Shown: in pieces, positions 46,757-52,394 of the stretch
Layout: each line of letters opens with the position of its first letter
Position numbering within the stretch: position 1 is the first letter of the stretch
Assembly: GCF_900636965.1 (NCBI RefSeq)
Contig: NZ_LR134331.1
Span: forward strand, 2,356,001-2,420,000
DNA: 64,000 bases
Direction of reading: 5' to 3'
Origin: Lacticaseibacillus rhamnosus
GTDB taxonomy: Bacteria > Bacillota > Bacilli > Lactobacillales > Lactobacillaceae
Position numbers and translations under genes: made by a program
Notes under the pieces: model-generated
Seen by the model: only the letters and a program-made list of their open reading frames with translations
Told to the model about the DNA's origin: nothing
The model's database searches: none

Positions 46757-49387
46757 CTAGGCACCGGCTTTAACTTTTTTCATGGCGCGCAAGGCTGCTT
46801 GAGCCGCTGCGAGTCGGGCAACCGGCACCCGGTAAGGCGAGCAGGAGACGTAGCTGATGCCAATTTGATCAAAGAACGCCACTGAATCCGGATCGCCGCC
46901 AACTTCGCCGCAGACTCCGATCGGCAGTTGCGGATTTGTTTGACGACCGTTTGTAATCGCCATGGCCATCAATGCGCCTACGCCTTCTGTATCAACTGTT
47001 TGGAAAGGATCATTCGGAAGAATTTTCTGCTCCAGATATGCGGGTAAGAAGGATCCCACATCGTCACGCGAATAGCCAAAAGTTAACTGGGTAAGATCGT
47101 TCGTCCCGAAACTGAAGAAGTCGGCGGCGTGAGCAATTTTGTCCGCGGAGACGCAAGCGCGCGGGGTTTCGATCATGGTACCAACTTCATAGCTCACCTG
47201 CATCCCTTTTGCGGCGGCCAGCTGTTCAATTTGCCGAACAACCAATTGCCGCACCCAACGCAACTCGGTTTCCGAATTGGTCAAAGGAATCATGATGTGC
47301 GGTGTCACCTGCATCCCTTCGTCGGCTAACCGGAATACCGCATGCATCAGCGCCCGCACTTGCATGGCGTAAATATCCGGATAGGTCACGGCTAGGCGAT
47401 CCCCGCGATGGCCTAGCATCGGATTGACTTCTTTCAAGGCTGCCATCCGTTCGCGTAACTGATTTTGCTCCAACCCCAGCTCATGCGCGACTTGCCCGAT
47501 TTCACGCTGGTCATGTGGCAAAAATTCATGCAGCGGTGGATCAAGCAGACGAATCGTGACGGTTTTACCAGCTGCCAAGCGATATAGCTCGTAAAAGTCC
47601 TGCTCCTGCATTTTCTCTAATGCGGCCAAGGGTGCCTTGCGTCCGGCTGCATCTTTTGCGAGAATCAACCGACGCATTTGTAACAATCGTTCTGGTTGGA
47701 AAAACATGTGCTCGGTGCGCGTCAAGCCGATGCCATCAGCGCCAAAAGCCAAGGCCTGCTGCAGATCCTTAGGTGTGTCGGCATTCGTAAACACGCCCAT
47801 GCGGCTGGCTTCCTTTGCCCATGCTAACAGTGTCGCCAGACTATCCTTGACCAAGGCAGCAGTGGTCGGGATTTGGCCGCGATACAAATTGCCGGTTGTC
47901 CCATCAACGGATACCCAATCGCCTTCATGCAGCACCGTATCGCCAACAGTCGCGGTTTTGGCATGTTCATCAACGGTTAAGGCATGCATCCCCACGACAC
48001 CGGTTGCCCCCATGCCGCGCGCGACCACAGCTGCATGTGACGTCATCCCGCCGCGCGCAGTCACAATGGCCTGACTGACAATCATCCCTTCAATGTCTTC
48101 CGGCGAAGTGTCTTGACGCATCAAAATCACTTGATGGCCCGCTTCATGAGCCGCTTTGGCTTCTGCCGCCGTAAAATAAACCTCCCCAGTTGCCGCCCCT
48201 GGTGATGCCGGTAAACCGGTAGCCAAAATCGTATGTGCCTGCAACGCCTGCGGATCAAACTCCGGATGCAACATGTCACTCAATGATTGCGGTTCAATAC
48301 GCAACAACGCGGTCTGGCGATCAATCAAGCCTTCGTTAACCAAATCTATCGCAATTTTAACAGCGGCCGCCGGTGTCCGTTTACCATTACGCGCTTGTAG
48401 GAGATAAAGTTGGCCATGTTCAATCGTGAATTCAAGATCCTGCATGTCGCGATAATGCTGCTCCAACGTGGTCGCGATCGCTGCCAGCTGATTATAAACT
48501 TCAGGCATTTGATCGTGTAAAACCGCGACTGACTGAGGCGTCCGCACTCCTGACACCACATCTTCACCTTGGGCATTCAAAAGATATTCGCCAAACAGCG
48601 CGCGTTCCCCAGTCGCCGGATCACGGGTGAAGGCCACGCCGGTTCCGGAATCAGCGCCAGCATTACCAAAAACCATCGTCTGAACGTTCACCGCGGTTCC
48701 CAAGTCTTCGGGAATGCGATTTTCGCGTCGATAAACGACTGCCCGCCGATTATTCCATGATTCAAATACTGCCGTCACTGCCGCCAGCATTTGCGCTTTG
48801 GGCGATTGTGGAAATGACTTGCCTGCTTCAATATAAAGCTGCTTAAATGCCAGAATGATTTGCTGCAGGTCAGCGGTTGTCAACGCCAAGTCAGAGTCAT
48901 ACCCATTTTGGCGTTTCACGGTGGTTAAAATGTCATCGAATCCTTTTTCCGACAAGCCGTAAACCACGTTACCAAACATCGCCAGTAAGCGGCGATAACT
49001 GTCATACGCAAACCGGGGATCGGCAGTTTCCCGGGCGAGTGCCTGAACGGTTTGATCATTTAAGCCGATGTTCAAAATGGTATCCATCATGCCTGGCATT
49101 GAAATCGGTGCACCGGAACGAACCGACACCAGTAATGGCGCAACCGGATCATCGAATCGTTTCCCGGTCGCTTTTTCTAACGCCTGTATGTGTTGATCCA
49201 GCTCGGTTAACAACGCTTCTGAAAGCCCGTGATGCTGTTGATAATCGTGGCACGCAGCAGTTGTGAGCGTAAAACCCGGAGGCACCGGCAGGCCAAGATT
49301 GGTCATTTCGGCCAGATTGGCACCTTTGCCACCCAATAATGCCCGCATCTCCATATTACCTTCCGCAAACGCATAGATTTGTTTCAT
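46757..49387 (-). CDS. ppdK: Pyruvate, phosphate dikinase
   Basis: 876 residues, the usual length. The N-terminal ATP-grasp part begins KGANLAEMTNLGLPVPPGF; the swivelling phosphohistidine domain has TARGGMTSHAAV with His451 and the regulatory Thr449; the C-terminal PEP-binding part has CGEVGGDPDS. It converts pyruvate, ATP and phosphate to PEP, AMP and pyrophosphate, a gluconeogenic step. Upstream sequence has a strong cre site and a motif shared with the CcpN-like gene. Its usual regulatory kinase/phosphatase (PDRP) is not next to it. Confidence 0.95.
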   Translation of the reverse strand: MKQIYAFAEGNMEMRALLGGKGANLAEMTNLGLPVPPGFTLTTAACHDYQQHHGLSEALLTELDQHIQALEKATGKRFDDPVAPLLVSVRSGAPISMPGMMDTILNIGLNDQTVQALARETADPRFAYDSYRRLLAMFGNVVYGLSEKGFDDILTTVKRQNGYDSDLALTTADLQQIILAFKQLYIEAGKSFPQSPKAQMLAAVTAVFESWNNRRAVVYRRENRIPEDLGTAVNVQTMVFGNAGADSGTGVAFTRDPATGERALFGEYLLNAQGEDVVSGVRTPQSVAVLHDQMPEVYNQLAAIATTLEQHYRDMQDLEFTIEHGQLYLLQARNGKRTPAAAVKIAIDLVNEGLIDRQTALLRIEPQSLSDMLHPEFDPQALQAHTILATGLPASPGAATGEVYFTAAEAKAAHEAGHQVILMRQDTSPEDIEGMIVSQAIVTARGGMTSHAAVVARGMGATGVVGMHALTVDEHAKTATVGDTVLHEGDWVSVDGTTGNLYRGQIPTTAALVKDSLATLLAWAKEASRMGVFTNADTPKDLQQALAFGADGIGLTRTEHMFFQPERLLQMRRLILAKDAAGRKAPLAALEKMQEQDFYELYRLAAGKTVTIRLLDPPLHEFLPHDQREIGQVAHELGLEQNQLRERMAALKEVNPMLGHRGDRLAVTYPDIYAMQVRALMHAVFRLADEGMQVTPHIMIPLTNSETELRWVRQLVVRQIEQLAAAKGMQVSYEVGTMIETPRACVSADKIAHAADFFSFGTNDLTQLTFGYSRDDVGSFLPAYLEQKILPNDPFQTVDTEGVGALMAMAITNGRQTNPQLPIGVCGEVGGDPDSVAFFDQIGISYVSCSPYRVPVARLAAAQAALRAMKKVKAGA

Positions 49388-49407
49388 GATAAAGCCTTCC
49401 CTTCGCT

Positions 49408-49423
49408 AAATATGACGTTATAT
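49408..49423. promoter_or_regulatory. Putative CcpN-type operator at ppdK
   Basis: AAATATGACGTTATAT lies 20-36 bases before the ppdK ATG, and a copy with one difference lies before the ccpN-like gene (50351-50366). Confidence 0.55.
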
Positions 49424-49460
49424 ATGTTCGCTATATAATGTATTATTTAGCCCGCGAAAA

Positions 49461-49474
49461 TGCAAGCGTTTACA
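49461..49474. promoter_or_regulatory. cre (CcpA) site at ppdK
   Basis: TGCAAGCGTTTACA (reverse TGTAAACGCTTGCA) matches the cre consensus TGWAANCGNTNWCA at 13 of 14 positions, about 75 bases before the ppdK ATG. Confidence 0.65.
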
Positions 49475-49613
49475 CTTAGAAATTGGTCTAATTCGGAAAA
49501 AGTTCAATTTCATAACGCTATATAATACACAAAAATCTTTTTGCAAGTGCGGCGATGCGCGGTTAATATAACAACCCATGTCACAACAAGAAACTTGCCT
49601 ATAAGGAATGTAA

Positions 49614-49658
49614 AAAGGTGTCCTATTTCTCGCCAAAATCGAGAAATAGGACACCTTT
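49614..49658. terminator. Terminator of ccpN-like gene
   Basis: AAAGGTGTCCTATTTCTCG pairs perfectly with CGAGAAATAGGACACCTTT. Confidence 0.85.
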
Positions 49659-49687
49659 AATTTGAAGCTGCAAATGAAAGCCCAGCC

Positions 49688-50302
49688 TCATGGTGCAAGT
49701 GTTTCAATTAAGTATTTAAAGATCCGGTTTTTAGTGATCTTGCCAATCACATGAGTGTCCCCATGTTTTTGGATCACAGGGAGTGAATCGACATTGTGTT
49801 TCAACAACAACTTGCTGGCCGCCATAATGGTCGTATCCGCCGTCACCGTCACGACATTGGGCATCCGCGTCATGACAATGCTGGCCGGTAAAGTGGTGTC
49901 ACGATCTGTAAAGCTGGCGCGCAATAAGTCCTTTCGCGAGATGAGGCCGACCAAGGCGCCATCATCATCTAACACGTATAAGGAGCCGACATCCGCCAAG
50001 AACAGCTTGGTTACCGCTTCTTCCATCGAGGTTGTCAGCTTAATTTCAGTCGGCGGCAATAATATTTTGGCAATCGGGGTATTAAACAGCGCATCGTTAT
50101 CGACTGATAAAACACTCGCTCCTTGGTAGGCATATCCAACTTTAGGCCGGGCATCTAAAATTCCAACCGTTGTCAGCAAGCGTAAGTCAGCGCGAATCGT
50201 GGCCAAACTAATCTTTAATTGCGTCGCCAGCATTTCCCCAGTCATCGGACTTTTTGCTTTTAGTAACTGAACAATTTTTTGTTGACGTTTAGTAAGTTGC
50301 GT
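49688..50302 (-). CDS. ccpN: CcpN-like HTH/CBS repressor, apparent ACG start
   Basis: 204 residues if read from ACG 50302. The N-terminal helix-turn-helix QLTKRQQKIVQLL...MTGEMLA and DLRLLTTVGILDARPKVGYAY match CcpN, followed by two CBS domains (about 75-200). CcpN represses gluconeogenic genes in Bacillus. No ATG, GTG or TTG lies between the in-frame stop upstream and the helix; AGGAGGA stands seven bases before the ACG. The next ATG, 50245, would cut off the first helix. So a non-AUG start or a mutated start codon is likely. It lies beside ppdK, its probable target. Confidence 0.8.
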   Translation of the reverse strand, partial: TQLTKRQQKIVQLLKAKSPMTGEMLATQLKISLATIRADLRLLTTVGILDARPKVGYAYQGASVLSVDNDALFNTPIAKILLPPTEIKLTTSMEEAVTKLFLADVGSLYVLDDDGALVGLISRKDLLRASFTDRDTTLPASIVMTRMPNVVTVTADTTIMAASKLLLKHNVDSLPVIQKHGDTHVIGKITKNRIFKYLIETLAP

Positions 50303-50350
50303 AAGCGCTCCTCCTCATGATTGCTAATCAACAGTATAACATTTTCAGGG

Positions 50351-50366
50351 AAATATGACGTGATAT
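50351..50366. promoter_or_regulatory. Putative CcpN-type operator at ccpN-like gene
   Basis: AAATATGACGTGATAT, 15 of 16 bases identical to the site at ppdK. Confidence 0.5.
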
Positions 50367-50401
50367 TTAATCGTTAATCACAACTTAATCCCAAATCTTG
50401 G

Positions 50402-50440
50402 TAAAATAAATCCGGCATGTAGCTAAACTACCTTGCCGGA
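50402..50440 (-). terminator. Terminator of phosphoglycerate mutase gene
   Basis: TCCGGCA-GGTAG pairs with CTAC-TGCCGGA with one bulge, followed by a T-rich run on the minus strand. Confidence 0.7.
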
Positions 50441-50446
50441 AAGTCT

Positions 50447-51118
50447 TCACAGTGTTTGTTTATTGAGAATGGTTAAATGCTGATCAAGCGTGTAGACGAT
50501 AGGTTGGGCATTGCCAATTTCAACTTTGTTAATACCAGCATCGCTAATAGCTTCCATGTACTTGACTAATGCCCGTAACGTTGAGCCGTGCGCCACGATA
50601 AGCTGATTCTTGCCGGCCATCAACCGCGGCGCCAGTTCGGCACTCCAATACGGCAACAGGCGCTCACTCGCATCGGCAAGACTTTCACCGCGCGGAATAA
50701 TCGTCGCCGGGTACGCGTGATAGCGCCGTGAACGACTGGGATGTGCCAACAACGGCGGATGCGCATAAAAGCTTCGCCGCCAGCTGGCAACTTGATCCGG
50801 GCCAAAAAGTTTCCGGGTCAGATCTTTGTTAATTCCGCGTAAGGCGCCATAATGCCGTTCGTTCAGACGCCAACTTTTAGTGATCGGCAGGTAATTCTGG
50901 CCGATTGCGTCCTGAACGATGTAGGCAGTCATAATGGCCCGCGATAACACGCTGGTATGCACATGCTCAAATAAGATCCCGGTCGCCGCAATCTTTTTGC
51001 CGGCAGCTGCTGCTTGAGCTTTCCCTTGCGCCGTTAATCCGACATCGGACCAGCCAGTATAAGTATTTTGTTGATTAGCAATGCTTTCGCCATGTCTTAA
51101 AAGGACTAATTTGACCAC
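50447..51118 (-). CDS. gpmA: 2,3-bisphosphoglycerate-dependent phosphoglycerate mutase
   Basis: 223 residues. The phosphohistidine motif [20 protein letters not shown] (His9) and [35 protein letters not shown] and [13 protein letters not shown] match dPGM. It interconverts 3- and 2-phosphoglycerate. Lactic acid bacteria often carry several dPGM genes, so this may not be the main one. Confidence 0.88.
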
Positions 51119-51275
51119 ATCACGGCCTCCTTAACCCAACTAGTATAACAATCTCAACGGGTTTAGGGTAGTCTGCTCGGCAGGTCTTTTTTGCTGCCAA
51201 GGCGTGAAAATGATAGGCTACTATTATTGAACTAAGCAAGGCACACTGCCTTAGCTTATAGAAAGAAGGATGCTC

Positions 51276-52394
51276 ATGGCCAAGTCGCATCAATCTGTCA
51301 CCATGGTCGAGCTTTTCTATGATTTGATTTTTGCCTATGCCGTTGGGCGAATGGCGCAGACTCTGGCAGTGCCGGTGCATGGGATGATCGCGCCACAAGT
51401 ACTGGTTGAATTTCTATTGATGCTGCTGGTTTTCTGGACCATCTGGACTTTTCAGACAGTCTTAATCGATCGTTTTTCACATCATGAAGTGACCCACAAC
51501 CTGTTTACGTTGTTCAACATGTTTTGGGTGATTGTCTTAAGCACCGCGATTAACCCTGATTTTGCTAAAACTAAGTGGCCATTTCAATTAAGTGCTGCGA
51601 TTCTCTTCTTGAGTCTTGCGAGCCAATACGGTCTGCTTTGGCGGCGAAAACACTCGCAACTCGCCAAAACATTTGGCATCACGCTGGCAGCTTGCAGTTT
51701 TGTGATTTTAATTTCGCTATTTATAAAGCCATACACCCTTTCATTTGCGGTCTTCTTTGGCGGTGTTTTAGCCGCTGGATTGATGCCATTGCTATTGCGG
51801 AACGTACTCAAAGCCACGCCAGCCGACTTAGGCAATCTCAGCACCCGTTATTCTCTATTGGTTTTACTGATATTTGGCGAATCGATCATTGGTGTGGCGG
51901 AAACCATTTATGCTGGTCTATCTTTGCAAGCAGGTCTTTTCTTCTTGGTAGTCATCTTATTGTTTATTGCCTACCAACTTGTTTATGACAACGGTCTCGA
52001 TCGCCGGCAAAAAACCGCGGGCTTGGCTGTTATCTATTTACAACTTCCATTACTGGCGGCCATTCTCAGTCTCAGTACGTTCATTCACTCGTGGCTGGCC
52101 GGGCTGCTTGATCCTCAATGGTTTGCGCTTGCCATCACGGTGACGTTGGCAGTTTATTATTTTAGCTTAATCGGATATCTTAGCGCCTACCCTGTCAAGC
52201 ACATTGACATCGGCTTCAAGCGCTGGTTTTACCTTGGTTTTTCCGTGTTGATTTTTGGTATTTTTAGCTTCATGACAACCATTATGCCATTACCCTTCAT
52301 GTTCGGACTCACCGCTTATCTATTAGCCAATACGCTTTATCTTTGGCAATTTATTCTCCATCCCAATGACGCGATGTATAATAAACTTGGTTAA
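51276..52394 (+). CDS. LtrA-family membrane protein
   Basis: 372 residues from ATG 51276, with AAGGA five bases upstream. About eleven membrane segments; the opening VTMVELFYDLIFAYAVGRM is the hallmark of the low-temperature-requirement A family. Its biochemical role is unknown. The 94-residue gene downstream begins 18 bases after its stop. Confidence 0.85.
   Translation: MAKSHQSVTMVELFYDLIFAYAVGRMAQTLAVPVHGMIAPQVLVEFLLMLLVFWTIWTFQTVLIDRFSHHEVTHNLFTLFNMFWVIVLSTAINPDFAKTKWPFQLSAAILFLSLASQYGLLWRRKHSQLAKTFGITLAACSFVILISLFIKPYTLSFAVFFGGVLAAGLMPLLLRNVLKATPADLGNLSTRYSLLVLLIFGESIIGVAETIYAGLSLQAGLFFLVVILLFIAYQLVYDNGLDRRQKTAGLAVIYLQLPLLAAILSLSTFIHSWLAGLLDPQWFALAITVTLAVYYFSLIGYLSAYPVKHIDIGFKRWFYLGFSVLIFGIFSFMTTIMPLPFMFGLTAYLLANTLYLWQFILHPNDAMYNKLG

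Follow-up and report, generated by a model that had tools for sequence, protein, structure and literature searches.

An ACG codon, conserved across the casei group, as the likely start of a CcpN-like repressor gene

Translation of a CcpN-like repressor gene (ccpN) of Lacticaseibacillus rhamnosus probably begins at ACG, which very rarely serves as a start in bacteria. Comparison with related genes supports this start well, and the presence of ACG at this position is a real and lineage-wide property of the casei group. The initial annotation had suggested that such a codon gives low-level translation and tight dosage of the repressor, and our analysis leaves both plausible. Positions given below are those of the window, the 64,000-nucleotide stretch of contig NZ_LR134331.1 (positions 2,356,001 to 2,420,000 of the forward strand) that was analysed, unless a genome position or another stretch is named.

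Gene and candidate start

The following features define the gene and its 5' end.

49688 to 50302, reverse strand: ccpN, gene of the CcpN-like repressor, 204 codons from the ACG plus a stop; named from its helix-turn-helix (HTH) and CBS domains and its orthologs
50300 to 50302, reverse strand: ACG, proposed start codon of ccpN, kept in 5/5 casei-group orthologs
50310 to 50315, reverse strand: AGGAGG, Shine-Dalgarno (SD) sequence of ccpN, 7 bases 5' of the ACG; GGAGG-type, at a spacing of 7-8, in 5/5 casei-group orthologs
50243 to 50245, reverse strand: first in-frame ATG of ccpN (codon 20), inside the HTH; rejected as the start
50333 to 50338, reverse strand: TATACT, possible -10 box of ccpN, found by eye and from the alignment

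Around the proposed start the reverse strand reads TGA GGA GGA GCG CTT ACG CAA CTT ACT AAA CGT. An in-frame stop (TGA, 50317-50315) stands five codons 5' of the ACG, and 19 codons precede the first in-frame ATG, GTG or TTG, which is the ATG at 50245-50243. The earlier statement that no canonical start precedes the first helix of the HTH is thus borne out, as the Pfam HTH_11 match begins at residue 6. The placing of the ACG seven bases after the SD was right for AGGAGG (50315-50310), but for AGGAGGA, the form that was named, the spacing is six. The possible -10 box reads TATACT in four of the five casei-group genomes aligned and TATAAT in the fifth (G017).

The product has the architecture of the CcpN family, an N-terminal HTH (HTH_11, residues 6-57 over positions 1-54 of a 55-position profile) plus two CBS stretches (Pfam). 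The NCBIfam CcpN profile NF053704 aligns with residues 2-201 over its positions 2-205 of 208, and because the score of 208.8 bits does not reach the equivalog cut-off of 260 bits, we use the name CcpN-like. As the HTH_11 and NF053704 matches begin there, the first 19 codons are part of ccpN. In its HTH and CBS domains and in the nearly whole CcpN profile that it aligns with, the protein is like YqzB of Bacillus subtilis, which we take to be CcpN, and the match of its CBS part to the solved structure of YqzB, 3fv6, has an E value of 2.7e-23. It differs from B. subtilis CcpN in scoring under the curated cut-off, in its ACG start and in its probable target, which is ppdK rather than the gapB and pckA given in excerpts of PMC3616900.

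Start codon in related genomes

We compared the start codon at two scales. In a genus set of 30 genomes, 17 gave some match to ccpN at E 0.001, but true orthologs (63-100% identity) were found in seven, the remaining matches having E values of 2.7e-6 or worse. Five of the seven, from our own genome and from G028, G005, G006 and G017, belong to five species of the casei group (86-100% identity) and carry ACG, with no ATG, GTG or TTG at the homologous start position in any of them. The two others, G002 and G023 (63-65% identity), start with ATG. One observation counts against a start at ACG: G017 has an in-frame GTG three codons 5' of its ACG, although this GTG overlaps the SD.

The wider set consisted of 397 genomes sampled from the larger group of Lactobacillaceae genomes, with E 1e-20 as the criterion for orthologs. 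Orthologs were present in 61 genomes, and inspection of all 61 start codons gave 5 ACG (all in the casei group), 36 ATG, 11 TTG and 9 GTG. In every one of the 61 the start column stands directly 5' of a conserved x-x-(T/S)-x-R-Q stretch. Because the column is the same throughout, the ACG appears homologous to a start codon and, on this alignment rather than on a tree, most simply derived once. The comparison that the initial annotation had called for therefore gave a clear outcome, ACG in 5/5 casei-group orthologs (one genome per species) and ATG, GTG or TTG in 56/56 others. Its alternative that an ATG was mutated to ACG survives as an ancestral change of the group and fails as a mutation or error of the sequenced genome. 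ACG occurs in five separate genome records, which rules out a sequencing error or a strain mutation as its origin.

We also considered the idea that the ccpN family as a whole prefers weak starts. TTG and GTG together account for 20/56 of the orthologs outside the casei group, which is close to a crude background of 151/518 frames in this genome. Weak starts therefore do not clearly mark the family, and the idea was not borne out.

Coding constraint and the Shine-Dalgarno sequence

By the pattern of substitutions, coding constraint extends 5' up to the ACG. Over codons 2-19, the synonymous and nonsynonymous differences number 6 to 2 between the window and L. zeae and 7 to 4 between the window and G017, and among the three closest casei-group sequences they number 1-3 to 0. 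Between the main lineages of the group, synonymous change is close to saturation. The third base is the same in all five orthologs at only 6/74 of the four-fold codons that they have in common and at 2/18 of the threonine codons of ccpN; thus, an ACG that was not under selection would probably have varied. The codon just 5' of the ACG varies among the casei-group genomes (CTT, CCT, CCA and GTC).

The strength of the SD goes with the start codon. All five ACG genomes have a GGAGG-type SD, whereas the two ATG relatives of the genus (G002 and G023) have the weaker AGAAAGGA. This is in line with the compensation of weak start codons by the SD, which excerpts of PMC5622118 describe as a general trend. 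Among 61,358, that study reports 363 changes of an AUG start to GUG, 113 to UUG, 2 to CUG and 1 to AUU, and ACG is not mentioned in its main text. A leader hairpin that hides the SD was not detected, as 66-base folds from the five species did not surpass those of shuffled sequences (z -0.21 to 0.96).

These data bear on whether the ACG arose by drift, that is, whether weak initiation was tolerated, one transition was fixed and the SD became, or already was, strong, with no regulatory benefit. A single substitution would have been enough, ACG could be common to the five species by descent, and compensation by the SD is not peculiar to this gene but follows the trend cited above (PMC5622118, excerpts). 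However, ATG is only one transition away, and ACG has been kept in five species despite the near saturation of synonymous sites. We regard drift as rather unlikely.

The operator-like site and ppdK

The neighbourhood of ccpN suggests what the repressor may control.

46757 to 49387, reverse strand: ppdK, pyruvate phosphate dikinase, probable target of the ccpN product
50353 to 50366, reverse strand: operator-like site ATATCACGTCATAT at the ccpN promoter
49410 to 49423, reverse strand: operator-like site ATATAACGTCATAT at the ppdK promoter
49614 to 49658, no strand assigned: perfect inverted repeat with 19-base arms between ccpN and ppdK, a possible terminator

The two genes lie on the same strand, ccpN first, with the inverted repeat in between, and a full-length ppdK adjoins ccpN in the same 7/30 genus genomes that carry ccpN. 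A terminator scan of 49300-50500 found none, and a promoter scan of the same interval did not recover the TATACT box and returned two promoter-like sites, both on the plus strand. As neither scan gave output on the minus strand, they lend no support to the box or to a terminator. No Rfam element was matched within 48500-51500.

The exact pattern ATATMACGTCAYAT occurs at two places in the 2.99-Mb genome, upstream of ppdK and upstream of ccpN; allowing one mismatch added one more place, and the reversed pattern, used as a control, had one. The looser pattern ATATMACGTMAYAT occurs at 12 places in 7/30 genomes, against 1 for its reversed control. Nine of the 12 are at ccpN or ppdK of five casei-group genomes, and one precedes a CitMHS transporter gene of this genome. 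It also occurs once each in two genomes without a ccpN ortholog (G016 and G022), which counts against a CcpN operator. Because both promoters share this rare site, the CcpN-like protein probably represses ppdK and itself. Excerpts of PMC3616900 list ppdK, ccpN and fbp as predicted CcpN targets in Lactobacillales.

The site is not uniform among relatives, which likewise counts against such a role. In G005 (locus L003) it is present at ppdK only, and the sequence 5' of the -10 region of ccpN differs from that of the other species; as its ccpN has no such site, autoregulation may be lost in this species. Neither G002 nor G023, which have the ATG orthologs and an adjacent ppdK, matched the pattern, and the operator-like site may therefore differ outside the casei group. 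In other bacteria, proteins of the PF03618 (kinase-PPPase) family act together with CcpN and PpdK, and the genome has a gene of this family at another location.

A near match of the site, ATATCACGTAATAT, lies on the reverse strand at 503-516 of stretch L228 (genome C1 1928702-1928715), about 40 bases 5' of the ATG of the CitMHS-type citrate transporter gene. On this sequence match the transporter is a possible extra target; with the pattern used, the CitMHS-linked site was not found in the other casei-group genomes.

Model for the dosage of the repressor

We propose a model that addresses how the ACG arose, how it may be read and what the repressor would do. A start codon, most simply ATG, would have become ACG in the ancestor of the casei group. 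The ordinary initiator tRNA would read ACG with fMet despite the mismatch at the middle base, and the strong SD 7-8 bases upstream would make initiation possible yet inefficient, so that little repressor is made. The repressor would then most likely bind in front of ppdK, at the site found in both promoters, and in four of the five species in front of its own gene as well. The result would be a low-copy, self-limiting switch over the step from pyruvate to PEP. Taken as a whole, we consider this model fairly probable, and if it is true, the start codon permanently sets the level of a metabolic repressor, like a volume control.

Published data on ACG initiation cut both ways. In one E. coli reporter ACG gave 0.1-1.5% of ATG, which counts against the model, but the same assay gave 26-33% for odd codons such as CGC (PMC6925171, excerpts). 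For initiation factor 3 (IF3), a requirement for Watson-Crick pairing at the first two codon bases has been reported (PMC10158994, excerpts), which also counts against the model. By such in-vitro rules ACG should hardly work; yet five species keep it.

Non-canonical starts that keep a regulator at a low level are known, with infC and sigR as precedents; new, as far as we searched, are the codon ACG and the gene. In the literature searched (titles and the beginnings of abstracts; unlisted papers or journals could hold cases) we found no natural bacterial ACG start, and the ACG starts that did appear, judged by their titles, were mostly from organelles, viruses, yeast and engineered constructs. 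The lacI gene of E. coli resembles the proposed role of ccpN in that its weaker start, GTG, lowers the repressor and eases use of the sugar operon (PMC11445065, excerpts), but GTG is an ordinary alternative start.

IF3 and other non-canonical starts

We scanned a sample of 864 kb of the 2.99-Mb genome (the window and 40 further 20-kb stretches, with 744 open frames) for codons one base from ATG that have an SD match of at least 6 bases and lie 8 or more codons upstream of any ATG, GTG or TTG. Only two frames were returned, ccpN (ACG) and infC (ATA). As infC is a gene known for its non-canonical start, its presence in the output indicates that the scan recovers true cases. A control scan that accepted every codon following a strong SD, again with 8 codons or more to the first ATG, GTG or TTG, gave 8/744 frames, in two of which the codon is one base from ATG. 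Because the control already gives eight frames, the coincidence of SD and near-cognate codon is weak on its own, and it is the homologous column and the conservation in five species that place the ACG of ccpN above chance.

The infC gene, which encodes IF3 (L130 14932-15450, reverse strand; genome C1 about 1739932-1740450; confirmed at 225 bits), has no ATG, GTG or TTG start in this genome; its start is ATA, which follows GGAGGTGA and does not vary among the 9 genus genomes aligned, out of 30 found. Like ccpN of this genome, infC pairs a strong SD with a non-canonical start. They differ in that ATA has its mismatch at the third base and ACG at the middle base, and in that the infC start is widespread whereas the ACG of ccpN was seen only in the casei group. 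In Listeria, six conserved genes have fixed non-canonical starts, including infC (ATT) and rnhC (ATC) (PMC13068326, excerpts); no rnhC match was found in this genome.

Since infC itself starts at such a codon, it is conceivable that ccpN responds to IF3 through its ACG, so that relaxed IF3 proofreading relative to ribosomes would lead to more CcpN and to further repression of ppdK. We regard such a response as distinctly unlikely. It has a parallel in sigR of Streptomyces, like ccpN a regulator gene with a clade-conserved non-canonical start and a strong SD; sigR functions with GTC and an extended SD, needs its weak start and is repressed by IF3, although the study was unable to demonstrate that the physiological stress relieves this repression (PMC5472188, excerpts). 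The two genes differ in their codon (GTC versus ACG) and in their product (a sigma factor versus a repressor), and IF3 control has been demonstrated for sigR and is hypothetical for ccpN. The conserved ACG would in that case be a regulatory device that has been kept, by which IF3, through proofreading of the middle-base mismatch, sets the level of CcpN and couples the supply of PEP through PpdK to the condition of the translation apparatus. Both infC (ATA) and ccpN (ACG) would then be read by IF3; this larger proposal is equally doubtful. If it were true, ccpN would be the first bacterial gene in the literature searched to have a natural, conserved ACG start. The conserved ACG is also a natural test of how strict IF3 is against a middle-base mismatch.

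Other starts and tRNAs

A start at the ATG of 50245 is very improbable. It is the first in-frame ATG, and initiation there would yield a protein of 185 residues that lacks the first helix and has lost DNA binding. However, the HTH and CcpN profiles begin upstream of it, and since the HTH_11 match covers residues 6-57, residues 6-19 of that match would be lost. Synonymous constraint also reaches 18 codons further upstream, and by inspection no SD-like stretch precedes this ATG, the strong SD standing before the ACG instead. Gene finders limited to ATG, GTG and TTG would miss part of the repressor's DNA-binding domain in these food and probiotic bacteria.

An out-of-frame ATG (window 50316-50318, reverse strand) overlaps the SD region of ccpN and is the first codon of a nine-codon ORF whose end lies within ccpN, and G017 also has an out-of-frame ATG 5' of its SD. 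A frameshift from such an ATG, or an initiator-like tRNA for ACG, is barely credible: the upstream ORF is ruled out by the casei-group loci L002, L003 (G005) and L004, which have no ATG between the TATACT box and the ACG, and the one CGU tRNA among those found is a normal threonine elongator, with a paired acceptor end and without the GGG/CCC anticodon stem, unlike both initiators. ARAGORN named 60 tRNA genes in stretches that take in 60 of 61 tRNA-family places (the one left out, at 852439, scores 31 bits), and no CGU initiator was among them. The two initiator tRNAs are identical and normal, with the anticodon CAU. ARAGORN also named a tRNA-Phe with the unusual anticodon AAA (L190 28-100, reverse strand; genome C1 1972827-1972899), which reached only 48 bits in the tRNA family search.
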